The notes under the pieces: model-generated
The model's database searches: none
Told to the model about the DNA's origin: nothing
Seen by the model: only the letters and a program-made list of their open reading frames with translations
NCBI GenBank assembly: GCA_944385405.1
Contig: CALWXB010000013.1
Location: forward strand, 1-44,442
DNA length: 44,442 bases
Direction of reading: 5' to 3'
Source: an uncultured Oscillospiraceae bacterium
GTDB lineage: Bacteria > Bacillota > Clostridia > Oscillospirales > Oscillospiraceae
Position numbers and translations under genes: made by a program
Part shown: positions 2,601-38,491 of the stretch, piece by piece
Position numbering within the stretch: position 1 is the stretch's first letter
Layout: every line of letters starts with the position of its first letter

Positions 2601-4691
2601 TCAGCGGACACTGAACAGCAGGTCGCCGTAGGTGGGATAGGGCCAGCAGTCGGAGGCCGTCAGCGTCTCCGCCTCGTCCGCAGCGGCCCGCAGGGCGCTC
2701 ATGGACGGCAGCACCTCATCCCGGATCCGTCCAGCCGTGACGGTGACGTCGCTTTCCGTCTGCAGCTCCGCCATGAGACGCTCCAGCGACTCTGTCCGCC
2801 CGGCGATGCGGTCCGTCAGTCCGGAGAGCCGGCGCACCAGATCCCGCTCATACAGGCACATCAGCTCCGGATCCGCAGCCTTCTTGACAGAAGCGGAAGA
2901 GGCCACCCGGGCAGCGTATGCCTCCACGGCGGGCAGGATATCCCGCCGGGCCATATCCACCATGGTCAGTGCCTCAATGCTCACGCTCTTGCAGTAGTTC
3001 TCCATGGTGATCTCATAGCGGGACTCCAGCTCCGCCTGGGTGTAGACCTTCAGGCCGGTGAGCATCTCCATGTTCTTCTTCTCCAGCAGGCAGGGGACAC
3101 AGTCCGGCGTGGTGCGCAGGTTGGCAAGTCCCCGACGGGCGGCCTCCTCCAGCCAGGCATCGTCGTAGCCGTTGCCGTTGAAGATGATCCGCTTGTGATC
3201 CCGGATGGTATCCTGGATCAAGGTGTGGAGCGCGGCGTCCAGGTCCCCGGCCCCCTCCAGGCGGTCGGCAAACTTGCGCAGGGTATCCGCCACGGCGCTG
3301 TTGAGCATGATGTTGGCGCAGGCGATGGAGTTGGAGGAACCCAGCATCCGGAACTCAAACTTGTTGCCGGTAAAGGCGAACGGCGAGGTCCGGTTGCGGT
3401 CGGTAGTATCCCGGAGGAACCGGGGCAGCGCCGGAACGCCCAGCTTCATGCGGATACGCTCCGCTCCCTGGTAGGGAGCGTCCGATTCGATGGACTTGAG
3501 CACCGCGGTGAGCTCGTCGCCCAGGAAGATGGACACCACGGCAGGCGGCGCCTCGTTGGCGCCCAGCCGGTGATCGTTGCCGGCAGTGGCCACAGCTGTG
3601 CGCAGGAGGTCCTGATAGTCGTCCACCGCCTGGATCACAGCGCACAAAAACAGCAGGAATTGGGCGTTTTCGTGGGGCGTCTCACCGGGGGAGAGCAGAT
3701 TCACACCGGTATCCGTGGACATGGACCAGTTGTTGTGCTTGCCGGAGCCGTTGACGCCGGCAAAGGGCTTTTCATGCAGCAGGCACACCAGACCATGGCG
3801 GGCGGCCACCGTCTGCATGATCTCCATGGTCAGCTGGTTGTGGTCGGTGGCCAGGTTGGTGGTAGTGTAGATGGGGGCCAGCTCATGCTGGGCGGGTGCC
3901 ACCTCGTTATGCTCGGTCTTGGCCAGGATGCCCAGCTTCCACAGCTCCTGGTTGAGATCTTCCATGTAGGCCGCCACCCGGGGCTTGATGGTACCGAAAT
4001 AGTGATCGTCCAGCTCTTGCCCCTTGGGCGGTCTGGCTCCGAACAGCGTCCGGCCGGTATAGATCAGATCGGGACGGCGCCGGTAAAGCTCCGCATCCAC
4101 CAGAAAATACTCCTGCTCCGGACCCACAGAGGTGCTCACGCGCCGGACATCTTCATTGCCGAACAGCCGCAGGATCCGCAGTGCCTGACGGTTCAGTGCC
4201 TCCATGGAGCGCAGCAGCGGGGTTTTCTTGTCCAACGCCTCGCCTCCGTAGGAGCAGAAGGCCGTGGGGATGCAGAGCGTCTTACCCTTGACGAAGGCAT
4301 AGGACGTGGGGTCCCAGGCGGTATAGCCCCGGGCCTCAAAGGTGGCCCGCAGCCCGCCGGAGGGGAACGAGGATGCGTCGGGCTCCCCCTTGATGAGCTC
4401 CTTCCCGGAAAACTCCAGGATCACCCGGCCATCCGGGGCAGGGGTGATGAAGCTGTCGTGCTTTTCTGCCGTGATCCCCGTCATAGGCTGGAACCAATGG
4501 GTAAAATGAGTGGCTCCCTTCTCCACCGCCCAGTCCTTCATGGCGGCGGCCACGGCGTTGGCCACGGACAGATCCAACTTTGTACCGTCGTCAATGGTCT
4601 TTCTCAAAGAGCGGTACACATCCGCGGACAGACGGGCTTTCATCACCCGGTCGTCAAATACCATGCTGCCAAAATACTCCGGTATCATCAT
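2601..4691 (-). CDS. glnN: Glutamine synthetase type III
   Basis: ATP-dependent synthesis of glutamine from glutamate and ammonium in the cytosol. The length (696 aa) and the N-terminal block [20 protein letters not shown] are diagnostic of GSIII, not of the 440-470 aa GSI. Catalytic-core motifs visible: GPEQEYFL (about 190-197, metal-binding Glu), [13 protein letters not shown] (about 258-270) and [12 protein letters not shown] (about 312-323). It starts at an ATG preceded by GAGGTGAG. It heads an operon with the Amt-P-II fusion and is read away from the glutamate synthase operon. Its leader carries a promoter followed immediately by a terminator hairpin, which points to transcription attenuation. 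A second, type I-like synthetase is at 8375-9586. Confidence 0.96.
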
Positions 4692-27755: not shown

Positions 27756-27781
27756 TTTGGCAGCGGGTGAAGGATTCGAAC
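27756..27781. repeat. Left attachment-site repeat of the integrated element
   Basis: 26 bp identical to 38466-38491, beginning TTTGGCAGCGGG and ending GATTCGAAC. It is the 3' end of tRNA-Gln including CCA. Next base differs on both sides. The left copy has no tRNA attached. Confidence 0.92.
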
Positions 27782-27884
27782 TGGAAATATTGTGTAAAAT
27801 ATGGTATCAGGCATTTTCAAAAGTCCCGCGTTTTCAATGCTTCCCGGGTTTCGCTGTAAAATGCCGTATCACGTTAAAAAAGCT

Positions 27885-27906
27885 GTAAGGGGTAAATGAA
27901 GGGGTA
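27885..27906 (+). repeat. Left arm-type integrase site (candidate)
   Basis: GTAAGGGGTAAA, three bases, then AGGGGTA. The same pattern occurs at 38346-38367 in the same orientation. Pairs of short direct repeats near each end are typical arm-binding sites of tyrosine integrases. An inverted GGCATTTT/AAAATGCC pair also lies at about 27811-27864. No gene is seen in 27782-28024. Confidence 0.5.
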
Positions 27907-28016
27907 GAAATAGCCCACTGTGGCGATTTCTGAAAACAGCTGTTATGTGGCAGCGAACCGCCGCAACCTGCACCGGTTCGCCGCCTTTGCGCTCTCTGAC
28001 GGCCTGCAAAGTGAAA

Positions 28017-28043
28017 GCTGGGGATTATTTATCCCCAGCCTCT
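28017..28043. terminator. Terminator overlapping the RHH gene stop codon
   Basis: AGCTGGGGATTATTTATCCCCAGC, then CTCTTTTT on the plus strand. The stop codon of the minus-strand RHH gene lies in the loop. Confidence 0.65.
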
Positions 28044-28231
28044 TTTTCGTCTATACAGTCCAGCACATAGTCCCGCAAGACGGCATTTGAAGTTTTCCCC
28101 ATGCCTGCACAATACGCCTTGAACTTCTCCGCCTGATCCTTCTTGACACGGCATGCCAAGCTTGCGATGTTTTCGCGCTGATATTTTGCCGACGCTCTTT
28201 TCTGCGCCTCTGATGGTGCCAAATTTCCCAC
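28025..28231 (-). CDS. Ribbon-helix-helix (Arc/CopG-type) DNA-binding protein
   Basis: 68 aa. ASLACRVKKDQAEKFKAYC gives the beta strand and helix A, GKTSNAVLRDYVLDCIDE helix B, matching the RHH fold, which binds DNA as a dimer. GTG start at 28231 with GGGAGGGAAAGAG upstream. It is divergent from the six-gene micro-ORF run, and the AT-rich region between contains repeated ATATATGGTTAAT boxes, its likely operators. Confidence 0.75.
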   Translation of the reverse strand: MGNLAPSEAQKRASAKYQRENIASLACRVKKDQAEKFKAYCAGMGKTSNAVLRDYVLDCIDEKEAGDK

Positions 28232-28254
28232 CTCTTTCCCTCCCTATTTTACCA

Positions 28255-28338
28255 TGTATATATATGTTTAACTATATATTTTTTTCACATAAATATATGG
28301 TTAATGTTGTTCCATCTGCCCATTGATATATGGTTAAT
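28255..28338. promoter_or_regulatory. AT-rich operator region with repeated ATATATGGTTAAT boxes
   Basis: Exact ATATATGGTTAAT copies at 28293-28305 and 28326-28338, 33 bp apart (about three helical turns), and an inverted related sequence TTTAACTATATAT near 28267-28279. The right box also forms a near palindrome with TCATATAT. Likely bound by the divergent RHH protein. Confidence 0.6.
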
Positions 28339-28351
28339 CATATATTACAAT
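28323..28351 (+). promoter_or_regulatory. Predicted promoter of the micro-ORF operon
   Basis: -35 TTGATA (28323-28328), a 17-nt spacer and -10 TACAAT (28346-28351). The spacer contains the right-hand operator box. Confidence 0.6.
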
Positions 28352-28437
28352 GTAATCACCGCAAGGGGCAAAAAATCCCCAGCACAGACAACAAAGGGCC
28401 AACCGGCCCAACCAGAAAATCAAGGAGGAACTGATAC

Positions 28438-28539
28438 ATGACGGAAGAACAGGCGCGGGATTTGATTTCCTGCCTGACCTATGCGGAAAAGGTCGCACTG
28501 CTTGAGATGCTAATTAATTTGGAGGGGGTATCGGCATGA
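28438..28539 (+). CDS. Micro-ORF 1 (33 aa), unknown
   Basis: Begins MTEEQARDLISC and has a second amphipathic helix EKVALLEMLINLEG. Strong RBS AAGGAGG 9 nt upstream. Its stop overlaps the next start (ATGA). Two short helices predicted, no membrane segment. First of six similar genes. Family not recognised. Confidence 0.65.
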   Translation: MTEEQARDLISCLTYAEKVALLEMLINLEGVSA

Positions 28540-28655
28540 CTTTTGAAGAAATCAAGGCGGAGCTGTGCCGCATCATCGACGTGTCGTACAAGAGTCAGGC
28601 GGAGCTGATCCTCGGAATTGCCCGCGATATTGTGGGAGAGGGGGCGCAGAAATGA
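28536..28655 (+). CDS. Micro-ORF 2 (39 aa), unknown
   Basis: Begins MTFEEIKAELCRIID; second helix KSQAELILGIARDIVG. Starts inside the stop of ORF 1 with GGAGGGGG upstream and overlaps ORF 3 by 4 nt. The M-T-x-x-E start and helix spacing match its neighbours. Confidence 0.65.
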   Translation: MTFEEIKAELCRIIDVSYKSQAELILGIARDIVGEGAQK

Positions 28656-28756
28656 CGGCCAGTGAAATCCGGGCGGAAATCAACCGCCGGCTGGAGTGGT
28701 GTGGTATGAGCCAGTTGGAACTTGTTCTCGATGTCCTGAAGGCCATTTTTAAGTGA
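28652..28756 (+). CDS. Micro-ORF 3 (34 aa), unknown
   Basis: Begins MTASEIRAEINRRLEW; second helix SQLELVLDVLKAIFK. Closest to ORF 4 (same length; LEWCGMSQL against LERCNIRQL). RBS GGGAGAGGGGG. Overlaps ORF 2 by ATGA. Confidence 0.68.
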   Translation: MTASEIRAEINRRLEWCGMSQLELVLDVLKAIFK

Positions 28757-28770
28757 AGGAGGGCGCAGGC

Positions 28771-28875
28771 ATGACACCCAATGAAGCGATTGCAGAAATC
28801 GTCCGTCTGCTGGAGCGGTGCAACATCCGGCAGTTGTCCCTTGTTCTCCGCATGGTGCGGGTTATTTTGAAGTGA
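28771..28875 (+). CDS. Micro-ORF 4 (34 aa), paralogue of micro-ORF 3
   Basis: Begins MTPNEAIAEIVRLLER; second helix RQLSLVLRMVRVILK. Same length and layout as ORF 3, and the DNA before each ATG is nearly the same (GGGGGCGCAGA, GGAGGGCGCAGGC), which supports tandem duplication. RBS GGAGGG. Confidence 0.68.
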   Translation: MTPNEAIAEIVRLLERCNIRQLSLVLRMVRVILK

Positions 28876-28888
28876 AGGGGGCGCAGGC

Positions 28889-29002
28889 ATGACGAAGCTG
28901 GAAGAGGCCCTGGAGCTGTTCGAGCAGCTTACGGAGGATAAGCAAATAGCATTTCTTGAGTTCCTGCGGAAACTCGCAGGGGAAAGTGAGGCGTGGGAAT
29001 GA
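28889..29002 (+). CDS. Micro-ORF 5 (37 aa), unknown
   Basis: Begins MTKLEEALELFEQLTED; second helix KQIAFLEFLRKLAGE. RBS AAGGGGGCGCAGGC, again the same leader as ORF 4. Overlaps ORF 6 by ATGA. Confidence 0.66.
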   Translation: MTKLEEALELFEQLTEDKQIAFLEFLRKLAGESEAWE

Positions 29003-29106
29003 CCGTCGAAGAAATGTTCGAGCATCTGACACCGGGCAACAAGGAGCTGGTGACTTCCACCATTGATGAACTAATCCAGCAGCAGGAAGAGGCGCGGCGG
29101 AGGTAA
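28999..29106 (+). CDS. Micro-ORF 6 (35 aa), unknown
   Basis: Begins MTVEEMFEHLTPGNKE; second helix NKELVTSTIDELIQQQEE. Last of the run; a terminator follows 7 nt after the stop. Shares the M-T-x-x-E start and the two-helix pattern. Confidence 0.64.
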   Translation: MTVEEMFEHLTPGNKELVTSTIDELIQQQEEARRR

Positions 29107-29112
29107 AGAGAG

Positions 29113-29140
29113 AGCCGGGGAGAGATCCCCGGCCCTTTCT
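29113..29140 (+). terminator. Terminator of the micro-ORF operon
   Basis: GCCGGGGA-GAGA-TCCCCGGC followed by CCTTTCTTATTT. It also marks the end of the tape measure gene on the other strand. Confidence 0.8.
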
Positions 29141-31131
29141 TATTTCCATCCGTGCCGCTTAAATTCTTCGATCATGTACGGGGCCAGGAAGTGGGCCGCT
29201 CCGCGCGGCTCCACCTTGAACCCCACGCTGAAATCCACTTTTTGCGGCTGCTGCTGCGTGGCTGCCGGTTCGCTTACGGTTCGCGTCATGCCTTCCACGC
29301 CGCCCATTGCGGTGTATGCCATGTTTTCCTGCCGGGTCAGGACGCGCTCGCCGTAGTCCAGGAAAGCCGGGGTCCAGTCGGCCATCACAAAATCCTCGCC
29401 GGACTGGTGGCGGGAGCCGGTCAGGGATCCGCCGTAAATGCTGACAAACGCCTCTTTTCCTGCCTGTGTGGACAGGCTCCAACTCTGCCCGCTGGTCGTA
29501 GTCCCGGACGTGGGCACAAGGTTCCCCCAGCTGTTTGTGTAGAACGTCCGGCCCGGTGCTGCGCCCAGTGTGGTATCCGCCTCCTTGAACGTTCCGGCCT
29601 GCTTCATTTGTTCGGCCCGCACATAGTCGATCCGCCCCGACGCATCGACAAGGCCGTTTGCCTGATAGTCTGCGAAGGAGGTAAAGCTGTCCATGTACTC
29701 CAACTGCTTGTTGAGGGCCTCTTCCTGCGCTGCCTTGAGTTGTTCAAGGGCCGCAATAATAAGCCCGATTGCCGCAACCGCGATCCCGGCATATCCAGTC
29801 ATACCAGACAGCGCGCCGCCCAGGCCTCCCACGGATGTCGTTGCCCCTGACGTGGTGGAAGTCATGAGCTTGAGAGCGGATGTAACATCGTCAAAGAGGC
29901 TCTTTGCCGTCATGGCCGCTTTCAGTGCAATATAACCCGTTGTCAGGGCAACCACAGCGCCGCCCACGGCCTCCAGCACTTCCTTGTGTTCCGTGCCCCA
30001 CTGGATAGCGTCCCGGGCCGCTTCCACAAGCTCCAGGGCAATGGGCATGAGATCCTCACCGATCTCCGCCGCCAGCGTCTGCATTTCAAGCTGGAGGATG
30101 CGGGTCTGGTTTGCGAAGCTGTCCGACGTTTTGGAGAAATCACCCTGGGCGTCCGCCGTGGCCTGCATGATGTACTGATATCGAAGCGTTGCCTGTTCGG
30201 CCTGGGACATCTCTTCATACGCCGTGGTGATGCCCTGGGACATGGCGTAAGCCTCCAGGTTGACAATGTTCATGTTGATGCCCAACTGCTTGAGGGGTTC
30301 GGTTTCGCCGGAGATACCGGCGCGGAGCTTTTCAAACGCTTCCGTCGGGTCCAGGTTGTAGAAGGACGCCATATCACCGGCAAGACCGGCGATCCCGATG
30401 GACATTTCTTCAATGTCCTTTTGCCCGACGCCCATAGACTTGAACATAGCGCCGATGGTAGACGTGAACTGCTTTGCCTGCAATTCGGATTCGCCGAACG
30501 CCTCCGCCGCGCTTATGGCCCACTCGTTGATCCGCTGCGCCCCTTCCTGCCCGAAAGTGGTGTCAACCACGTTCTGGACTTCGGAGAGGTCAGAGGCCAC
30601 ACCAACGGCGTACTTGCCGAACTCGATGATTTTCTTTGTGGCAAAGGCTGCGCCGATGGCCTGCGCCACCCGCTCAAGGGAGGTTGTGGTCTTTCCGAGG
30701 TTCCCCGTTAACTGATCCGCTGCACCGTCAACTTCAGAAAGCCGGTCTTTGCTTGCCGTCAGTTCATCGTTCAACTTGCTTATTTCGGATTCCAGTTTTT
30801 TTGCAGCAGCCGAATTTTCACCCTGTTCAAGCACAACGCTTTTATACTTTGACACAACTTTTCCAAGTTCGTCCTGCTGCGTCTTGATCTTTTGCGTCAG
30901 CTTATCATAAGCGGATGCCGTTTCTTCTGTTTGCTTTTCAACGTCTTTCCCGGATTTTTTGACCTTTTCACTTGATTTTTTCGCGTTTTCTGCGCCAGTT
31001 TCAACGGACTTAGTAACGCTGCCAACGCTTCCTTTTACATGTTTTTCGAATTGGTCAACGGCCTGCATGGCCTGCGACGCGTCACCCTCAATTTTGTATA
31101 CGACCTTGCCATCCTCAGCCACGCCGGACAC
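29140..31131 (-). CDS. Phage tail tape measure protein
   Basis: 663 aa. N-terminal region (about 1-150) is Lys/Glu/Ser-rich coiled coil (KSSEKVKKSGKDVEKQTEE; ENSAAAKKLESEISKLNDEL). The tape-measure core (about 155-400) contains the standard ATKKIIEFGKYAVGVASDLSE, FGESELQAKQFTSTIGAMFKSMG, AGLAGDMASFYNLDPTEAF and ISGETEPLKQLGINMN. Hydrophobic segments lie at about 400-470. The Gly/Ser-rich C-terminal part has ALSGMTGYAGIAVAAIGLI and ERVLTRQENMAY. It sets tail length and forms the inner tail core. GTG start at 31131 overlaps the -1 frame of the Gp15-like gene. Shorter than in most siphophages, so a short tail is implied. Confidence 0.93.
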   Translation of the reverse strand: MSGVAEDGKVVYKIEGDASQAMQAVDQFEKHVKGSVGSVTKSVETGAENAKKSSEKVKKSGKDVEKQTEETASAYDKLTQKIKTQQDELGKVVSKYKSVVLEQGENSAAAKKLESEISKLNDELTASKDRLSEVDGAADQLTGNLGKTTTSLERVAQAIGAAFATKKIIEFGKYAVGVASDLSEVQNVVDTTFGQEGAQRINEWAISAAEAFGESELQAKQFTSTIGAMFKSMGVGQKDIEEMSIGIAGLAGDMASFYNLDPTEAFEKLRAGISGETEPLKQLGINMNIVNLEAYAMSQGITTAYEEMSQAEQATLRYQYIMQATADAQGDFSKTSDSFANQTRILQLEMQTLAAEIGEDLMPIALELVEAARDAIQWGTEHKEVLEAVGGAVVALTTGYIALKAAMTAKSLFDDVTSALKLMTSTTSGATTSVGGLGGALSGMTGYAGIAVAAIGLIIAALEQLKAAQEEALNKQLEYMDSFTSFADYQANGLVDASGRIDYVRAEQMKQAGTFKEADTTLGAAPGRTFYTNSWGNLVPTSGTTTSGQSWSLSTQAGKEAFVSIYGGSLTGSRHQSGEDFVMADWTPAFLDYGERVLTRQENMAYTAMGGVEGMTRTVSEPAATQQQPQKVDFSVGFKVEPRGAAHFLAPYMIEEFKRHGWK

Positions 31132-31212
31132 CTCCCATCAAATTCGCCGCCAGCCGCTGGAGGCTGCGCTGATACTGCGCCTGTTCTTCTTCCGGGGTAA
31201 GTTTCAGGCGGC
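31115..31212 (-). other. Minus-one frame continuation of the Gp15-like protein
   Basis: Directly past the Gp15-like stop the -1 frame encodes a natural C-terminus (KLTPEEEQAQYQRSLQRLAA) and ends in a stop overlapping the tape measure start. Related Gp15 proteins, as I recall them, continue in this manner. Either programmed frameshifting or a fixed frameshift mutation would explain it. I see no classical slippery heptamer at the junction. Confidence 0.5.
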
Positions 31213-31704
31213 ATTTTGCCTTGCCTTCATAATGGCCCGGATTTGATCCTGGTTGTTTTTGTTCGGCTTCGGGATGGGGCAGGTGCGGATGTGTACCAGC
31301 TGGGACAAGGGGCACACCGGCCCCTGCAAAAGCCCTTTCACCGCGGCGGAGAAGTCGCACCAGTGCATTTTCCCACGCACGGCCCGCAGGTTGATGCCGT
31401 AGACCTGGAGGAAAGATGCAAAGATGGCGTCCGCGTCCTGTTCAAAGTCAAACGTCCGCTGCCCGTCTCCGCCGGTTTCCCCGTCGGTCAGGACCTTGAA
31501 CACGGCATTGATGAGGCCGGGGTCCCGGGGCGCATCGTCCCCCAGCAGCAGGAACGTCACATAGTCCAGCTTCTGCGCGGGGGTGTACTCCGGAGCTTTG
31601 TACATGCTGAACGCCTCCAGGATGCGGTCGAAGGAGGCGTTAAAGGGGTATTCTTTACCCAGGTACTCCACCCGGGAAGGGTGGGCGTCAAACAGTTTCG
31701 GCAC
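31204..31704 (-). CDS. Gp15-family phage protein (tail assembly chaperone position)
   Basis: 166 aa of the Bacteriophage Gp15 family (RVEYLGKEYPFNASFDRILEA at the start, later MHWCDFSAAVKGL and HIRTCPIPKPNKNNQDQIR). It lies immediately before the tape measure gene, the usual place of the tail assembly chaperone. The reading frame stops about 30 residues before the expected end, with the rest in the -1 frame. It overlaps the gene before by 17 nt. Confidence 0.8.
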   Translation of the reverse strand: MPKLFDAHPSRVEYLGKEYPFNASFDRILEAFSMYKAPEYTPAQKLDYVTFLLLGDDAPRDPGLINAVFKVLTDGETGGDGQRTFDFEQDADAIFASFLQVYGINLRAVRGKMHWCDFSAAVKGLLQGPVCPLSQLVHIRTCPIPKPNKNNQDQIRAIMKARQNAA

Positions 31705-32086
31705 GGCGGGCCTCCTTCATGGCGTCAATGCGCCCCTGGGTGATAGCCTGGATCTGCCGCCCAATGCGCCGGTAAATGTACGGCAGGACCTGCTCCAGCA
31801 GGTCCATATACCGCCCTTCATAGTGGGCAAGGATGGCGTCCGTATCGTCCTCGAAAATGACCTTCAGGAACTCAACCACGCAGCCGCCGTACATGCTCAG
31901 AGATACAGGGTTGCGCGGGTCTGCCGCTTCTCCGGCCTGCATCAAATGGCCCAGGGCGGTGGTGTAACGGCCCATGATGGTTTCCAGGTCCAGGGAGAGG
32001 TGAATGGTCTTGACCACGTTGCCGGATTCGTCCAGCAAGTCAAGGTTGTCCTCAAACGGGGCGGTTCGTTTCAGTGGGTAATTCAT
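31688..32086 (-). CDS. Phage tail-module protein, probable chaperone partner of Gp15
   Basis: 132 aa from ATG 32086 (MNYPLKRTAPFEDNLDLLDE), with AAGGATCG upstream; the frame is open to 32107 but from GTG. It is helical, without membrane segments, with TIMGRYTTALGHLMQAGEA and a C-terminal PYIYRRIGRQIQAITQGR. Order (this gene, Gp15, tape measure) matches the pair of tail chaperones in siphophages. Function by position only. Confidence 0.65.
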   Translation of the reverse strand: MNYPLKRTAPFEDNLDLLDESGNVVKTIHLSLDLETIMGRYTTALGHLMQAGEAADPRNPVSLSMYGGCVVEFLKVIFEDDTDAILAHYEGRYMDLLEQVLPYIYRRIGRQIQAITQGRIDAMKEARRAETV

Positions 32087-32103
32087 GATTTTCGATCCTT
32101 TCT

Positions 32104-32907
32104 TCACAGCAGATTGTAAATCTCGCTGGCGAGATAGCCCATCGTCCCGAACCGCTCCACGGCGAAGTCAAGAATGGGGTTCTGCACGTCGTTGGAAGCG
32201 GTGTCCAGCAGAGTGATAGCCCCGGCATGGACTTTGCTCCAGGCGGCTTTCCGGTTCTCCGGCGTGCGGATCTGCGCCCGGTTCTGGGCAAAGCCGTGTT
32301 CCGCTGCGTACTTATCCAGGGCGGCCAGCATGGTGTAGTTGTCCCGGTATTTCTCAATCAGGCCCACCACGTCAGCCTCCGCCAGCGGGAAGGCCCCGGA
32401 AAGCAGCTTCATATCCTCGGTGATCTTCGTACCATCGAACACGGCCCAGCGGTCAATGGACGCCAGAACGCCCTGGAAAGCGGCGTCAATAGCGTCCTTC
32501 GCCTTGTAGTACAGGGCGCGGCGCTGCTCGTTCAGCTTCTCGTTAGCCTCGTAGGAAATGGTGGGCTGCAGGCGCTCCTTGTTGGTCTTGATCTGCTTTT
32601 CGATCTCCACGGCCTGCTTGTAGTAGTCGGAAATGGCGGCCTTCATTTTGTCCATGTAGATGTTGGTCATCGTGTTGTTATCTCCTTTCGGTTGTTCCAC
32701 GGGCCGCTGCTGCGGCTCCGGCTTTTGGGGTTCGGGTTTCTTCACCGGCTCCGGCGGGTTCAACTTAATGTTGCCCCGCTCCACCAGATAGCGGAAAATC
32801 TTCATTTCTCCTTTGTCGTTCAACCTGTATTGAAGATCCCGGGGGACGTCGGCCATCGTCAGGCCTTTGGAAAGATAGTCCTGTATAATGCGCTCTGATA
32901 CGGTCAT
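32104..32907 (-). CDS. Element protein with Pro/Gln-rich linker, unknown
   Basis: 267 aa: an N-terminal small domain (about 1-50, MTVSERIIQDYLSKGLTMAD, HTH-like), a Pro/Glu/Gln linker (about 51-75), and a helical C-terminal domain (about 80-267) beginning MTNIYMDKMKAAISDYYKQ. AAAGGAGATAA lies before an internal ATG at about residue 80 (near 32670), so a second, shorter product may be made from the same frame. Such nested starts occur in scaffold or virion proteins. Family not recognised. Overlaps the next upstream gene by ATGA. Confidence 0.6.
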   Translation of the reverse strand: MTVSERIIQDYLSKGLTMADVPRDLQYRLNDKGEMKIFRYLVERGNIKLNPPEPVKKPEPQKPEPQQRPVEQPKGDNNTMTNIYMDKMKAAISDYYKQAVEIEKQIKTNKERLQPTISYEANEKLNEQRRALYYKAKDAIDAAFQGVLASIDRWAVFDGTKITEDMKLLSGAFPLAEADVVGLIEKYRDNYTMLAALDKYAAEHGFAQNRAQIRTPENRKAAWSKVHAGAITLLDTASNDVQNPILDFAVERFGTMGYLASEIYNLL

Positions 32908-33245
32908 GCTTCTGCGTCCTCCAATCTCACAACACCGCGCCGGTTCTCCCAGACATTGCCCTTCTTTTCCATAGCCGGAAAGCCGATCCAGCGGAGAAGG
33001 ACGCCCACGCCCATCTGTGTCGCCGGGTCCAGGCTCTCCAGCTGCGTCATGTCAAACTCCAACAGCGGGCAGTCCTCCGGGTTCAGCGGCTCCATTCTGC
33101 CTACCAGGTGGAAGAACACGGCCCCCCGGAAGGTTTCCCAGCTCCCGCCGTGTGGACCGGTTCGGTCTGTCCACTTCACTTGTGCGCCTCTCAGGCGCTG
33201 CTCCAGGTCTGCAATTACAGCTTCAAGGGCTGCATATCGTTTCAT
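32904..33245 (-). CDS. Small element protein (113 aa), unknown
   Basis: Begins MKRYAALEAVIADLEQRLRG, then GPHGGSWETFRGAVFFHLVG and a middle MGVGVLLRWIGFP. Compact alpha/beta protein without signal or membrane helix. Overlaps its neighbours by 4 nt on each side (ATGA). In complete phages this slot often holds head-tail joining or minor proteins; I cannot assign it. Confidence 0.6.
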   Translation of the reverse strand: MKRYAALEAVIADLEQRLRGAQVKWTDRTGPHGGSWETFRGAVFFHLVGRMEPLNPEDCPLLEFDMTQLESLDPATQMGVGVLLRWIGFPAMEKKGNVWENRRGVVRLEDAEA

Positions 33246-33604
33246 CGTCTGTCACCCGCTAATTCCTCAAGTTTTGCGATCCGGCCCAAAAGGTCGGACA
33301 TCTCCGTGTATCGCAACGCCTGTTCCAGCAGAGAACGGGCGGCGGCCACCCGGGCCGTTTTCCCTGCCTCCGGGTCCGTGGCGATCTCTTGCAGGGTGTC
33401 CACGGCAGAGGAAAGGCCGCGCTGCATACGCTGCGTAGCATCCTCTACAAGCCGTGCGTGGGCCTGCTGGTATGCCTCTCGAAAATCAGGCTCCGCCATG
33501 TATCGGCGTATGGTCCGGGCAGATATGCCCAGCTTTTTGGCCGCTGCTGCCTGCGTCGGTTCAGAAAGAAGGGCGGCAAGCGCCCGGTCCTTTTTGTCGG
33601 TCAA
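33242..33604 (-). CDS. Small-terminase-like helix-turn-helix protein
   Basis: 120 aa from a TTG at 33604 (GAAAGGCGG 8 nt upstream). N-terminal HTH (about 12-38: PTQAAAAKKLGISARTIRRYM), long helices about 50-115 (ATQRMQRGLSSAVDTLQEIA; LLEQALRYTEMSDLLGRI). It resembles the phBC6A51-type HTH proteins and small terminase subunits. No large terminase gene follows. If it is a true TerS, it could redirect a helper phage packaging motor, as in phage-inducible islands (inference). Confidence 0.6.
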   Translation of the reverse strand: MTDKKDRALAALLSEPTQAAAAKKLGISARTIRRYMAEPDFREAYQQAHARLVEDATQRMQRGLSSAVDTLQEIATDPEAGKTARVAAARSLLEQALRYTEMSDLLGRIAKLEELAGDRR

Positions 33605-33608
33605 TGTG

Positions 33609-33770
33609 TCACCGCCTTTCCTGCTGCTTTTTGTCCGCCTCTTTCCCGCTCCTTCCCCTTCTGTCCTTCGCCACGTGAAAAACCGGGGGTTCAGCGCGTG
33701 GCAGGCAGTCGCACACCTCCCCGGGGTCCAGGTTCGCCCCACACCGGGGACAGGTTCGGAAATATGCCAT
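33609..33770 (-). CDS. Zinc-ribbon small protein (53 aa)
   Basis: Begins MAYFRTCPRCGANLDPGEVC; CxxC then CxC makes a four-Cys zinc site, with a basic C-terminal half (KEADKKQQERR). RBS AAAGGAG 7 nt before ATG 33770. Small zinc-finger proteins of this type are common beside primase genes in Clostridia phages. Confidence 0.7.
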   Translation of the reverse strand: MAYFRTCPRCGANLDPGEVCDCLPRAEPPVFHVAKDRRGRSGKEADKKQQERR

Positions 33771-33797
33771 GCAATGCTCCTTTCTGGTGGTCGGTAA

Positions 33798-33910
33798 AGT
33801 GAGGCAGTGAGGCAGTGGCGTCACTTTTGCAAACTTTCCCTATATGCTTAATTTTTTCGTTTTGAGTTAAACAATAGGAAAGTGATTCACTTGGGCTCAC
33901 TGCCTCACTG
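33798..33910. other. Candidate replication origin with iteron-like repeats
   Basis: Two head-to-tail AGTGAGGC units (33798-33813) face inverted copies GCTCACT and GCCTCACT (33895-33909). Between them is an AT-rich core with a second nested inverted repeat, CTTTCCCTAT (33834-33843) and ATAGGAAAG (33874-33882). The region is directly after the primase-helicase gene, the usual ori place in P4-like replicons and islands. It may also hold the promoter of the downstream module. Confidence 0.55.
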
Positions 33911-33915
33911 TTTCC

Positions 33916-35475
33916 TTATATGATTTGCCTGTATTCGGTCGGGTGCGCTTTCTTGATTCCCATCCAAAACCTTCGCCCATCCCGGACCTTTTTTGCAAAC
34001 CCTTTGCCGGTCATGGCGTCCGAAAATTCCACATCCCGCCGGACATAATCACCGCTGCGCTGTGCCCATTCCCGGTATGTCTGGTACAGCTCCCCGGCCG
34101 GTGCCCTGGCGTCCGGCTCCATGATGCAGCACTCTTCCAGAAAGTTTTCCAGCCAGTTTTCCCGCTGCCGGTATTCGTCCGTCGCTTCCTCGACGATCTC
34201 CGGAACCGGAAGCCGGTATCCGTTCCGTGCAAACAGCATTGCCCCTTGAATGGCCCACGCCAAAATTGCAGGGCCGGCCTCTTCCACCAGCCTTTCCGCA
34301 TAGTTCGGGACGCCGTTTGCAATCCTGGTATTGAACGGAGCAACCTTGATCCGCCGCCATGTCCCGTCATCCGTCGAACCGACACGCGGCCTGTGATTGC
34401 TATACAAAATAAGGGTATGCGTTGGAACAATCGTTTCAGGGCTTCGGTATTTTTCTTCGACGGTGATGGGGTCCGTGCTGCTGATCTGCTTCAGCGTGGA
34501 AACGCTCAGCCGTTTCCCCTCTTCCAGCTCTCCGGCGATTACAAGCCGTTTCCCCCGGAGCGTGGCAAGCGCCGCGCCCCGGTTCTGCTTGTCCGTGGTC
34601 AGCACGGCAATATCCATCGTTCCGGCATAGTCACCCAATACGGCGGCCAGCGTGTTAAACAGTGTGCTTTTGCCGTTCTTGCCCGCTCCATAGGCAATTA
34701 CAATTCCTTCCTCGTACACGCGCCCAAAAAGCGACATACCGGCCAGCATTTGCAGATACGCGATAAACGAACTATCGCCGCCGGTGACGTCGTAAAGGAA
34801 TTTGCACCACATTTCCGCCCCGGCGCTTCCAGGCCCGCAAGCTGTCACCTTCGTACACATGGCCGCTTTATCGCATGGCCTGATTTCTCCGGTTTTCAGA
34901 TTGATAATGCCTTTCGGCGTGTTCAGCTCCCACAGGTTCGCGTCCAGCTTTGCCGGGTCCACGGCAAGGAAGTGCTTTGCAAGGCTCATAGCCGCGCGGA
35001 TCTGCCGCTCTCCCCTCGTTCGCATTGCGTGGGTGAGATATGCCTTTTCCCGTTTGACCGCTTCTGCGGCCTGTTCTGCCGCCTCTCTATCCCCTTCGGC
35101 CTTTGCATCGGCTTGGGCGTGAAGTGCTGCCCGATATGCGTCCTGCGCTTCCTCCAGCATCTTGTCCGACATATGTACGGCGCGCTTTGTGGACTTGTGG
35201 TCATCGGCTTCCCAGCGGATGCCATTCCAGCACAACCAGCCCCGCGAATCCGTATACAGCAGGCGGCCCTCGTTCAGCTCCCGGAACTTCTCCGCGTTCC
35301 CGGCGTCGGAAAAGTCGCCGGGGCGCACACTCTCCGCAATCTCTTCCTCTCCCCTGTCCTGCACACGCTCCGCCGCGTCTGCAATCTCTTCTATTGACAG
35401 GCCGGAAGCCTGCATTTTTTTGATTTCAGACAATGGCACACCGGCGGAAAGCGCACGGCTCAGGGCGTCAGCCAT
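33916..35475 (-). CDS. Phage/plasmid primase-helicase (D5/P4 family)
   Basis: 519 aa from ATG 35475 (frame open further up). N-terminal helical section (about 1-60), D5-N/VirE-like middle (LLYTDSRGWLCWNGIRWEAD, about 75-95), and SF3 helicase (about 260-430) with Walker A GAGKNGKSTLFN, Walker B region RLVIAGELEEG and sensor motif HTLILYSNHRP. The C-terminal part (about 440-519) is the P4-type winged region that binds the origin. It drives autonomous replication of the element. Overlaps the gene before (ATGATG/TGA), and an iteron-rich region follows its stop. Confidence 0.93.
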   Translation of the reverse strand: MADALSRALSAGVPLSEIKKMQASGLSIEEIADAAERVQDRGEEEIAESVRPGDFSDAGNAEKFRELNEGRLLYTDSRGWLCWNGIRWEADDHKSTKRAVHMSDKMLEEAQDAYRAALHAQADAKAEGDREAAEQAAEAVKREKAYLTHAMRTRGERQIRAAMSLAKHFLAVDPAKLDANLWELNTPKGIINLKTGEIRPCDKAAMCTKVTACGPGSAGAEMWCKFLYDVTGGDSSFIAYLQMLAGMSLFGRVYEEGIVIAYGAGKNGKSTLFNTLAAVLGDYAGTMDIAVLTTDKQNRGAALATLRGKRLVIAGELEEGKRLSVSTLKQISSTDPITVEEKYRSPETIVPTHTLILYSNHRPRVGSTDDGTWRRIKVAPFNTRIANGVPNYAERLVEEAGPAILAWAIQGAMLFARNGYRLPVPEIVEEATDEYRQRENWLENFLEECCIMEPDARAPAGELYQTYREWAQRSGDYVRRDVEFSDAMTGKGFAKKVRDGRRFWMGIKKAHPTEYRQII

Positions 35476-35864
35476 CATTCCACCTCCGCCGCGCTGATGG
35501 CGTCCGCCACGCTCAAAATCTCTTGCGCCCTTCCGCGCAGGGACCGAACGCATGCGGCGCGGTCTGATTCCGTCTCCGGCAGGAAATAGCCGTCTTTGCA
35601 GTTGCTCAGAATAGGGACGCCCAGCAACCGTTCGGCCTGGATGATCCGCCGCACTTCCCGCTCCGTCCAGCCGGTCAGCCGGACCAAATCGGAGAGGTGA
35701 AGGCCGTTTTGGGGACCGTGGGACAGAAAATCCGAAATACTGAATTGACTACCTCCGCCGCGTGGTGTATGGTTTTCATAGGGATTTCCGCTTGTCCTGT
35801 GGTTTCCCTGCATTGCCTGCCTGGATGTTACCGCATCTGGGCGGGCTTTTTTACTGTTATGCAC
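35475..35864 (-). CDS. HTH-domain element protein, unknown
   Basis: 129 aa. Disordered, polar N-terminus (about 1-40), then a winged-HTH-like stretch (GLHLSDLVRLTGWTEREVRR, about 55-75) and a C-terminal RGRAQEILSVADAISAAE. Similar small proteins precede the primase in Clostridia prophages; replication-linked role is inference. Overlaps both neighbours. Confidence 0.65.
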   Translation of the reverse strand: MHNSKKARPDAVTSRQAMQGNHRTSGNPYENHTPRGGGSQFSISDFLSHGPQNGLHLSDLVRLTGWTEREVRRIIQAERLLGVPILSNCKDGYFLPETESDRAACVRSLRGRAQEILSVADAISAAEVE

Positions 35865-36042
35865 TCTCGATCACCCCCGCCTGCTGATTGATCCAGCGCC
35901 TGAACGCCTCCACAGGGATACGAGTACACCCGCCAATCCGGGCCACCGGAAAACCAGGGAGCTGGAGCCATCTGTAAACTGTGGGCCTGGAAACTCCCGC
36001 CGCTCTGGCAGCCTCCGAAACGGTAAACGCCAATTTTTCCAT
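35857..36042 (-). CDS. Excisionase-type helix-turn-helix protein
   Basis: 61 aa from ATG 36042 (AAAGGAGG 10 nt upstream). MerR/Xis-type winged helix: FTVSEAARAAGVSRPTVYRW followed by the wing GGCTRIPVEAFRRWI. This family includes excisionases and small activators. It lies early in the operon next to the repressor switch. Confidence 0.78.
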   Translation of the reverse strand: MEKLAFTVSEAARAAGVSRPTVYRWLQLPGFPVARIGGCTRIPVEAFRRWINQQAGVIESA

Positions 36043-36043
36043 A

Positions 36044-36223
36044 TTAGCCAGCCTCCTTTGAAAGCCGCTCGATAATAGCAAAAATCCGCTTTTTTTCTTC
36101 CTGCGGCAGTTCTTTACGGAGCTTACGAGAAAGGCTGCAATCCGCAATTCCTAGCTCATCCGCAATCTGCCAAAGCCTTACCCCGGCCCCAGCTGCTGAG
36201 CGCCTGATATCTTGATTGTTCAT
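36044..36223 (-). CDS. Small HTH protein (59 aa)
   Basis: Begins MNNQDIRRSAAGAGVRLWQI, then ADELGIADCSLSRKLRKELP, a clear Cro-like HTH, and a C-terminal EEKKRIFAIIERLSKEAG. First gene of the minus-strand operon; ATG 36223 with GGGGGTGTAA upstream. It ends 1 nt before the excisionase-like start. Probably a Cro-type or early regulator. Confidence 0.72.
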   Translation of the reverse strand: MNNQDIRRSAAGAGVRLWQIADELGIADCSLSRKLRKELPQEEKKRIFAIIERLSKEAG

Positions 36224-36244
36224 AGTTACACCCCCAATTTGTTG

Positions 36245-36333
36245 TTGACGCTGCGGTTATATGCTGTTATACTCAGGATAGCATACAACAAGAGCAGACG
36301 CAACGCTCGAACAAAAGTTTCAACAGATATGCT
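36245..36333. promoter_or_regulatory. Divergent promoter and operator switch of the element
   Basis: Plus promoter TTGACG (36245-36250), 17 nt, TATACT (36268-36273) for the repressor. Minus promoter TTGCGT (36298-36303), 17 nt, TATCCT (36275-36280) for the lytic-side operon. A palindrome with TATGCTGT / ATAGCATA arms (36260-36285) covers both -10 boxes; an extra TATGCT is at 36328-36333. This is the layout of a CI/Cro-type switch. Confidence 0.68.
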
Positions 36334-36367
36334 CATTATTACAGCGTTTTTATGGTGGTGTTAATAA

Positions 36368-36985
36368 ATGAAGCGAAACATTGCTAGGAATGACCGCATG
36401 CCGATTTTTACAGAGCGGTTTAGAGAACTACAAGGGGAACGTTCGAACACGGAATTTGCTGATTTTTTGGGAATATCTCGGCAAACCGTAGGGTTTTATT
36501 GCAACGGAGACAGAATACCTGATGCATATATGCTTCGTTGCATTGCGGAGAAGTGCAATGTTTCTGCAGATTGGTTACTTGGGTTATCTGATATACGCCC
36601 TACTTCATACAATGAAGAAACTCCGACTTCGTTAGGGCTTACTGAAAGTTTTGTCAGATACCTTATATTTCTGAGGATGAATTGTTTTAATGGAGAAACC
36701 GAATTTTTCCATTCTGTGTTGAGCTCAAAACATTTTTTTAATGCAATTAAGGCAATTATAAAATTGTGGAATATCCCGTGCACAGACGCCGGTAATCTGC
36801 GTGGACTTGAAGGATGCGATTTTATACATTGCGCGGAAGAAATGGGTCAGAATGTCCTTCAGAAAACTGATAACAAATATACAGTTTGTCGTGTTGATAC
36901 TGCAGTTAACGGATTGATTTTTAAGGCCCAATCGAGCTTTGCATCTGCAATAGAAGATAGTTATTATAACAGGGCAAACAAATAA
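36368..36985 (+). CDS. XRE-family CI-like repressor
   Basis: 205 aa. N-terminal HTH (about 12-70): FRELQGERSNTEFADFLGIS then RQTVGFYCNGDRIPDAYML. The C-terminal part (about 80-205) is helical and lacks the S24/LexA Ser-Lys protease motifs, so SOS self-cleavage is unlikely; induction by another protein would resemble Stl of phage-inducible islands (inference). The gene is much AT-richer than its neighbours, indicating transfer. Alternative start at Met 11. Confidence 0.82.
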   Translation: MKRNIARNDRMPIFTERFRELQGERSNTEFADFLGISRQTVGFYCNGDRIPDAYMLRCIAEKCNVSADWLLGLSDIRPTSYNEETPTSLGLTESFVRYLIFLRMNCFNGETEFFHSVLSSKHFFNAIKAIIKLWNIPCTDAGNLRGLEGCDFIHCAEEMGQNVLQKTDNKYTVCRVDTAVNGLIFKAQSSFASAIEDSYYNRANK

Positions 36986-36987
36986 AA

Positions 36988-37022
36988 CCGCCCCCGGTGC
37001 TGCAAACACCAGGGACGGTCAT
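36988..37022 (+). terminator. Imperfect hairpin after the repressor gene
   Basis: ACCGCCCCCGGTG / CACCAGGGACGGT with loop CTGCAAA, flanked by an A-run; no strong T-run. Weak terminator candidate between repressor and integrase. Confidence 0.45.
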
Positions 37023-37085
37023 AGGGGCAGTAAACTTTGAGGGCCTACTGCCCTTCCATCTTATCAAATTGAGGGAGGAATTGCA

Positions 37086-38342
37086 ATGCCGCGAAAATCA
37101 AACACCAGAGCCGCCGCCGGGTCCGGAAGCATCCGGCAGCGTTCGAATGGCACCTGGGAGGCCCGCTTCACCGTCGGGCACGATCCGGGAACCGGGAAGC
37201 CCATTCGAAAATCCGTTTACGGAAAGACGCAGAAAGAAGTCCGCCAGAAGCTGGCCCAGGCCGTGGCCGCTGTGGATAACAGCGATTACTTCGAGCCATC
37301 AAAAATGGCGCTTTCACAATGGCTGGATGTCTGGGCGGCGGAATACATGGGGGACAAGCGGTATTCAACGAAAAAGACATACAAGGCTAACATTGAAACC
37401 CACATAAAGCCCGCCCTGGGGGCCGTGAAACTGTCCCAGCTGACCCCGCATCTGATCCAGAAGTTTTACAACACCCTGCTTACAAGCGGCTGTAAAGTGC
37501 CGCAGAGGGACAAGGACGGGAAAATGATCAAGCTGGACGGAAAGCCTGTCTATGATGCCGCCCCTATGTCTGCAAAGACCGTGCGGAACATTCACGGAAC
37601 ACTGACAAAGGCGTTGTCAACCGCCGTTGATATTGGCTATCTGCGGATAAATCCCGCTGACCGTGTCACTCTCCCACGGGTAGAGAAGAAAGAACTCGCT
37701 CCACTGACGGACGAACAGGTAAAGAACTTCCTCCAGGAATCGTCCAAAGATGATTTTGAAATCATTTTGAAGGTCATCCTGTTTACGGGTCTGCGGGAAT
37801 CGGAAGCCCTGGGCCTTACATGGGACAGCGTTGATTTCAAGGCCGGTACGCTCAAAGTATCAAAGCAGCTCCAAAAGCGGCGGCTCGCTGACGGCGGCGC
37901 GACGCTGTCCCCCACCAAAAACGGCAAGTCCCGGCTCCTGAAGCCCGCCCCGTTTGTCATGGGTCTGCTTCATCGGCAATACCAGGAACAGGCCACACGG
38001 CGCCTGAAAGCCGGGGATCTGTGGCAGGGATGGCAGACAGCGGAAGAACGAAAGACCAGCCTTGTATTTACAACAGCGGAAGGGAAAAGCATTTCCCAGA
38101 CGTCGATCCGCTATCACTTCAAAAAAGTCGCGTCTGCAATCGGCGTCCCGGCTTGCAGGGTCCATGATCTCCGCCACACGTTTGCCGTGCTGTCCCTCCA
38201 GAATGGGGATGACATCAAGACCGTACAGGGCAACCTGGGCCATGCCACCGCCGCCTTTACGCTGGATGTGTACGGTCATGTATCGGAGAAAATGAAGGAT
38301 GACAGCGCCGCCCGTATGGAGGCTTATATAAAGTCACTTTGA
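37086..38342 (+). CDS. int: Tyrosine integrase of the element
   Basis: 418 aa. Arm-binding AP2-like N-terminus (about 10-65: GSIRQRSNGTWEARFTVGHD), core-binding SAM-like domain (about 75-195: LSQWLDVWAAEYMGDKRYST), and catalytic domain (about 210-410) with TGLRESEALGLTW (Arg), VHDLRHTFAVLSL (HxxR), GNLGHATAAFT (His) and DVYGHV (Tyr). All catalytic residues are present. ATG 37086 with GAGGGAGG. It lies 124 nt from the tRNA-Gln it uses as target, the usual position for an active integrase. Confidence 0.95.
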   Translation: MPRKSNTRAAAGSGSIRQRSNGTWEARFTVGHDPGTGKPIRKSVYGKTQKEVRQKLAQAVAAVDNSDYFEPSKMALSQWLDVWAAEYMGDKRYSTKKTYKANIETHIKPALGAVKLSQLTPHLIQKFYNTLLTSGCKVPQRDKDGKMIKLDGKPVYDAAPMSAKTVRNIHGTLTKALSTAVDIGYLRINPADRVTLPRVEKKELAPLTDEQVKNFLQESSKDDFEIILKVILFTGLRESEALGLTWDSVDFKAGTLKVSKQLQKRRLADGGATLSPTKNGKSRLLKPAPFVMGLLHRQYQEQATRRLKAGDLWQGWQTAEERKTSLVFTTAEGKSISQTSIRYHFKKVASAIGVPACRVHDLRHTFAVLSLQNGDDIKTVQGNLGHATAAFTLDVYGHVSEKMKDDSAARMEAYIKSL

Positions 38343-38345
38343 GCC

Positions 38346-38367
38346 GTAAGGGGTAAACTTAGGGGTA
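38346..38367 (+). repeat. Right arm-type integrase site (candidate)
   Basis: GTAAGGGGTAAA, three bases, AGGGGTA; direct repeat of 27885-27906. Located just after the integrase stop. Confidence 0.5.
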
Positions 38368-38427
38368 TTTGACCGGGAGCAGAGAGCGTCCCGGAACTTT
38401 TTGCAGTTGTTTTTGAGCAAATATAAA

Positions 38428-38458
38428 AGAAAAGCCCCGGAATCATAACGATTCCGGG
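38428..38458 (-). terminator. Element-borne terminator of tRNA-Gln
   Basis: GCCCCGGAATC / GATTCCGGGGC with loop ATAAC; on the minus strand TTTTCTTTTATATTT follows. It replaces the original tRNA terminator now stranded at 27719-27752. Confidence 0.8.
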
Positions 38459-38465
38459 GCAATCT

Positions 38466-38491
38466 TTTGGCAGCGGGTGAAGGATTCGAAC
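38466..38491. repeat. Right attachment-site repeat (inside tRNA-Gln)
   Basis: Second copy of the 26-bp repeat, here part of the intact tRNA-Gln 3' end. The element restores the tRNA on this side. Confidence 0.92.

Follow-up and report, generated by a model that had tools for sequence, protein, structure and literature searches.

Six tandem microprotein genes in a satellite-like element of an Oscillospiraceae bacterium: candidate SinI-like hooks for XRE/CI-type phage repressors

Within a 44,442-nt stretch of DNA from an uncultured Oscillospiraceae bacterium (the whole of which is called the window hereafter), six consecutive short ORFs are situated at one end of an element resembling a phage satellite, and we propose, with about as much trust as doubt, that they encode SinI-like hooks which pair with the tails of XRE/CI-type repressors and act as a pooled set to lift helper-phage repression. 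The evidence described below supported the micro-ORFs as real and protein-like, with a two-helix plan, a position opposite an RHH-like gene and a place in the accessory end of the satellite-like element. In the proposed mechanism, the run would be translated into six separate two-helix hooks, each roughly as long as the hook regions of SinI and SinR, and all of them would be made together once the RHH-like regulator leaves its operators. Each hook would then pair with the C-terminal dimerisation tail of one particular XRE/CI-type phage repressor, and this pairing would break the repressor dimer or tetramer and lift repression, such that the satellite could rouse or direct various helper phages, whether already resident or newly arriving.

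Table 1. Positions in the window of the six ORFs, their control region and the surrounding element.
Feature	Position	Strand	Description	Remark
Left copy, 26-bp direct repeat	27756..27781	.	probable attachment site
RHH-like regulator, 68 aa	28025..28231	-	divergent from run	weak family match
Operator-like sites ATATATGnTTAAyCATAT and partial copies	28257..28351	.	predicted	binding presumed
Promoter-like site of run	28323..28351	+	palindrome in spacer	core kept in five aligned loci
ORF1	28438..28539	+	33 aa, putative lineage B hook	nearest relative L148 microprotein, z 15.7
ORF2	28536..28655	+	39 aa, putative lineage A hook	z 8.6 to ORF3, 11.1 to G118a relative
ORF3	28652..28756	+	34 aa, putative lineage A hook	z 12.7 to ORF4, 7.9 to L060 XRE tail
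ORF4	28771..28875	+	34 aa, putative lineage A hook	68% identity to G118a; AlphaFold2 model
ORF5	28889..29002	+	37 aa, putative lineage B hook	z 12.7 to L150 microprotein; AlphaFold2 model
ORF6	28999..29106	+	35 aa, putative looser lineage B member	z 11-12 to L156/L161 microproteins, 8.3 to L151 XRE tail
Terminator-like stem	29114..29133	+	3' flank of run
Remainder of element	29140..38342	.	tape measure, Gp15, small terminase, D5 helicase/primase, excisionase-like, XRE repressor, integrase
Right copy, 26-bp direct repeat	38466..38491	.	at tRNA-Gln gene

As summarized in Table 1, the coordinates confirmed all six ORFs of the original prediction, at the site and with the lengths given there. The own RBS or ATGA coupling that had been claimed for each was likewise found, in that an SD-like sequence precedes the ATG in six of six and ATGA overlaps join ORF1/2, ORF2/3 and ORF5/6, while the spacings between ORF3 and ORF4 and between ORF4 and ORF5 are 14 nt and 13 nt, respectively. 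The leader DNA said to be common to ORFs 3 to 5 proved to be a 19-nt repeat, D1, present in three copies, the first of which doubles as coding DNA for the C-terminus of ORF2. The run is preceded by a promoter-like site and followed by a terminator-like stem, in agreement with the suggestion that it has a promoter and a terminator of its own. The proposed common start Met-Thr-x-x-E held in part, with Glu at position 5 in five of the six products and MTEEQ in ORF1.

The six products had also been taken for one expanded family, instead of which sequence comparison (500 shuffles per pair) divided them into two lineages. ORF2, ORF3 and ORF4 were mutually alike (z 5.6-12.7) and are assigned to lineage A, and ORF1 and ORF5 resembled each other (z 7.8) and are assigned to lineage B. 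ORF6 exhibited no clear direct likeness to the other five (z 1.4 to ORF5), and was placed more loosely in lineage B via its relatives, namely the L156 and L161 microproteins and the L151 XRE tail. As for the common two-helix plan, AlphaFold2 predicted hairpins for the two products modelled, one from each lineage: ORF4, with helices at residues 3-15 and 19-33 (pLDDT 91, alignment of 5 sequences), and ORF5, with helices at 3-12 and 16-36 (pLDDT 90, alignment of 4 sequences).

A lineage B profile composed of ORF5, ORF1, ORF6 and one ORF from a viral contig, and containing no XRE protein, matched 33 of 400 genomes at E <= 0.02, host included, and the loci of 19 of the 35 non-host matches listed were read. 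Eight of these 19 are stand-alone ORFs; in six, the match falls on the tail at the C-terminus of an XRE/CI repressor, and in one on what looks like a truncated XRE tail (L149, which reads like such a tail in a short frame, is not counted with the six). The remaining four lie in the C-terminal regions of MarR-family proteins, and thus the motif is not confined to XRE proteins. A convergent XRE gene was located at -109 to +81 nt in seven of the eight stand-alone loci. In the eighth, L146, the XRE gene is upstream on the same strand and a lineage-A-like ORF follows downstream; here (1154-1452) a 54-aa B-type ORF and a 40-aa A-like ORF stand in tandem between the XRE repressor and an integrase-like ORF, which is a miniature of the mixed run in the window. 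The nearest microproteins were L148 for ORF1 (z 15.7), L150 and L157 for ORF5 (12.7 and 11.4) and L156 and L161 for ORF6 (11.0 and 11.9), each of the three ORFs being nearest to a different XRE-paired microprotein. By way of control, a convergent XRE gene was present near 1 of 125 SD-bearing ORFs (28-60 aa, taken from ten other stretches, range -110 to 310 nt), and this single ORF lies in the window.

The tail of the XRE protein and the neighbouring microprotein were alike at p <= 0.001 in six of eight lineage B pairs, the L162 and L164 pairs giving p 0.08; these eight pairs count L150 and not L146, and the eight stand-alone loci count L146 and not L150. Of the 40,320 permutations of the eight pairs, which are partly redundant (L156 and L161 are near-identical), 32 scored as well as or better than the true pairing, as did 4 of the 720 permutations of six pairs. 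The relatives of lineage B offer what the SinI model requires, namely a hook on its own next to a repressor whose tail resembles it. In L148 (1501-1882), L153, L156, L157, L161 and L162, the XRE gene and the convergent hook gene overlap antisense at their 3' ends by 37-109 nt, and the two C-termini therefore share DNA. Such overlap may add to the tail likeness of several B pairs; in L148 and L153, by coordinates, it takes in less than half of the hairpin.

For lineage A, a profile built from 11 rows found matches in 19 of 400 family genomes (E <= 0.02) and in 4 of 391 class genomes (E <= 0.01), host included in both counts, and within the host genome it matched ORF2-4 only. At the DNA level, the run had one strong match in the 300 family genomes, G118, in which the ORF4 homologue (G118a) and a second 34-aa member are divergent from the same RHH-like regulator and adjoin a tape measure gene; this element carries an integrase and a small terminase, and PHROG matches support all three assignments. 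Eighteen stand-alone lineage A cases were picked by eye from the matches of several searches, with the omission of L097, L109 and L110 (where no SD-bearing small ORF could be made out clearly at the match), L100-L103 (weak matches, for the most part in long frames) and L099 (which is the L060 XRE). A convergent XRE gene was found within 306 nt in 10 of the 18, in seven of them at 19-55 nt, and 8 of the 18 had none nearby; in G544, a 31-aa ORF is separated from its convergent XRE gene by 177 nt. One further match, L060, is itself an XRE repressor's C-terminal tail, which is resembled by both ORF3 and ORF4 (z 7.9 and 9.4). Phage-type integrases were identified near XRE-hook pairs in L175, L178, L182, L183, L184 and L185, six of twelve stretches having been tested. 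In addition, three genomes that were followed further carry phage head genes: G206 has large terminase, portal and major capsid, G212 has large terminase, portal and tail sheath, and G143 has portal and tape measure proteins as well as a minor head protein, which places at least three of the lineage A XRE-hook pairs in prophages. Among the roles put forward in the original prediction, namely anti-defence, interference with a helper phage and host modulation, helper interference is closest to the evidence, because the relatives pair with phage-type XRE repressors; the effect on the helper itself is a presumed one. In these analyses, which were directed at other questions, no result hinted at anti-defence.

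Six lineage A microproteins showed absent or marginal likeness to the tails of their own convergent XREs (p 0.04-0.63). A further idea, that the XREs opposite lineage A microproteins carry B-type tails, proved weak on testing: with profile B, L054 alone of ten XREs beat all 200 shuffles, L056 was matched by 1 and L055 by 3 of 200, and the others by more. No XRE gene is adjacent to the run in the window. In the host genome (88% complete), no clear matching tail was found among the XREs read, which comprised 30 of 55 HTH_3 matches and further stretches, seven weak matches being left out; ORF4 and an XRE tail on host contig 11 gave a weak lead (p 0.0015, uncorrected).

The missing tail likeness of lineage A, together with its eight loci lacking a convergent XRE and the four MarR matches of profile B, would suit helical proteins with other host or phage targets, such as defence, metabolism or MarR-type regulators, whose likeness to XRE tails would reflect a generic LTPEE-type hairpin. 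We consider this explanation fairly unlikely, since neither an XRE adjacency far above the control nor the better likeness of the true pairs is expected of a generic hairpin. Adjacency and tail likeness are, on the other hand, compatible with binding of either sign, and the hooks might serve as co-repressors that bind XRE repressors and strengthen or retarget them, keeping helper phages or promoters down; small co-repressors have been described, including Lxc of P1 and the dual role of MOR (PMC11323111). A hook without a DNA-binding domain would nevertheless be expected, by analogy with SinI, to break repressor dimers, and co-repression appears rather improbable to us, antagonism being the sign that we infer.

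Translation of the six ORFs is presumed. Taking SD-bearing ATG ORFs of 28-60 codons as the links of a chain, a chain of six was obtained in 0 of 5000 dinucleotide shuffles, in which the chain length was 0 (1741 times), 1 (3041), 2 (211), 3 (6) or at the longest 4 (once). When 240 tiles of 730 nt from both strands of the window were scored, one had a chain of 5, one had a chain of 3 and the rest had at most 2; because of the tile step, the former two may cut the run itself. Lineage A profile matches of 1e-5 or better were recorded in other genera prior to their inclusion. In the dN/dS comparison that had been proposed as a check, pN/pS was below 1 in 18 of 18 lineage A pairs tested (0.06-0.83; two were saturated for dN/dS), and dN/dS was 0.04 for L058/L059. 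Differences between L089 and L092 fall on third positions in 14 of 16 cases, and the changes in the microproteins of G066, G202 and G145 are mostly at third positions (1, 1, 14; 3, 2, 13; and 2, 3, 11 by codon position). In other pairs the position bias was slight, as in ORF3/ORF4 (12, 10, 14), or absent, as in L095/L105 (4, 4, 4) and L054/L057 (17, 9, 12). These latter pairs, and the fact that the whole six-gene run was not found at the DNA level among the 300 family genomes searched, speak for ORFs that are non-coding or translated without function, an interpretation that the shuffled chains, the matches across genera, the low dN/dS and pN/pS values and the third-position changes of L089/L092 render very improbable.

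Searches against known sequences and folds gave little. Of 50,697 phage records, none was matched by 28000-29150 in blastn, nor by ORF3, ORF4, ORF5 or the L057 microprotein in tblastn at E <= 10. None of the six ORFs matched NCBIfam, nor the SinI model in a Pfam scan at E <= 10, and their matches to PHROGs and Pfam were all sub-threshold; when 19 lineage A members were compared with PHROGs, the lowest E-value, reached by a single member, was 0.0024. A tape-measure scan of viral contigs gave no match, profile A5 had none among PDB sequences, and a fold search with the ORF5 model returned 4 matches at E <= 10 and 0 at 0.001. Matches of ORF5 to 17 PDB sequences, chiefly pentatricopeptide repeat proteins, were rejected, as they covered 14-15 residues and were summed over repeats with no stretch passing alone. 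In the literature, searched at the level of titles and abstract openings, neither a tandem hook operon on a satellite nor these families were encountered.

The element that carries the run lies in tRNA-Gln (27756-38491) and is bounded by perfect 26-bp direct repeats, and its integrase, probable attachment sites and length of 10.7 kb agree with the PICI-like pattern of an integrase with attachment sites at about 10-15 kb. Large terminase phrog_2 (E <= 0.001) was matched on host contigs 11 and 16 and nowhere in the window, and no capsid or portal was recognised in the ORF list and scans of the window. Judged by its sequence, the element looks like a PICI-like phage satellite, as had been predicted. 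The related loci with named records belong to Oscillospiraceae and other Clostridia (best 9 of 11). A second direct repeat of 26 nt (85%), at 27881-27906 and 38342-38367, is placed just inside the element ends and may be an integrase arm site. Tape measure and small terminase genes are found in two satellite-like elements, those of the window (29140-31704) and of G118 (L111, 13512-16508), in which large terminase and capsid were not seen; a satellite with its own tail-length ruler would be unusual. The large-terminase match at G000:C11:21840-23282 of the host (L191) contains two in-frame TGA codons and is perhaps a decayed prophage.

Opposite the run, the predicted RHH regulator was present as a divergent gene, though its RHH assignment is weak: its match to RHH families was Arc-like, at E 0.11, and a ParD match of the G118 homologue was below the cut-off. 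Its homologues are 64-81% identical (six aligned sequences). The promoter TTGATATATGGTTAATCATATATTACAAT has a palindrome within its spacer, and the promoter core and similar upstream motifs are largely kept across five aligned loci of the regulator. From this arrangement, the RHH-like protein would repress the run by occupying the promoter. A toxin-antitoxin pair with the RHH-like protein as the antitoxin was considered as a conceivable alternative. In G290 (L035, 9418-11934), two near-identical copies of the regulator and operator region are separated by ~2.3 kb, with a protein of 500+ aa between them. A protein of 89-92 aa, similar to the end of the RecE-type PHROG phrog_434, recurs as the first gene opposite the RHH-like regulator (L095 1113-1382, L033 about 3290-3559, L042, L044 and L048) and is missing from the window.

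A satellite protein that lifts the repression of its helper is known in epsilon of P4, which acts on P2. Epsilon is one larger protein, in contrast to the six small ORFs here, and is likened to them by role. In Bacillus subtilis, SinI and the tail of SinR hook together and thereby abolish DNA binding, SinR residues 74-111 and SinI residues 3-39 forming an intermolecular four-helix bundle (PMC3163267). The putative hooks resemble this system in that two of them are modelled as short two-helix proteins and in that the hook regions are about as long as the ORFs here; likeness to the C-terminal hook of an adjacent HTH repressor is seen in six of eight pairs of lineage B relatives. SinI, of 57 aa, is single and chromosomal (PMC3163267), whereas the six ORFs follow one another on a mobile element, presumably controlled by an RHH-like gene. 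In the TF-smORF modules of prophages, a transcription factor is divergent from a small-protein gene, an arrangement shared by the RHH-like gene and the run (Table 1), and the small protein inactivates a cI repressor; the factor there activates one smORF against the cI of the same phage, whereas the regulator here probably represses and six ORFs follow, and the smORFs are stated to be without homologues (PMC10432266). The Gifsy/Fels antirepressors of Salmonella are small and able to act on the repressors of other prophages, but are described as single genes of complete prophages under LexA or phage control, and are likened to the run by this description (PMC3121763).

Small antirepressors, TF-smORF modules and cross-acting antirepressors are already known from these accounts (PMC11323111, PMC3121763, PMC10432266). 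It is a tentative but conceivable extension that the satellite fires six hooks as one operon against whichever helper is present, a multivalent antirepression embedded in a wider, unnamed XRE-hook pairing of Oscillospiraceae phages. On the question of how satellites make use of unrelated helpers, pooled tiny hooks would, if true, be a simple means of reaching many repressors; the pooled-hook reading predicts one-to-one pairs, namely ORF1-L148, ORF5-L150 and ORF6-L156. Through the wider pairing of XRE genes with convergent hook genes (about 30-55 aa), small ORFs of phage immunity regions, which annotation may pass over, would acquire a role, and the hooks, if this is true, would provide short protein handles for controlling the dormancy of prophages in gut Clostridia.
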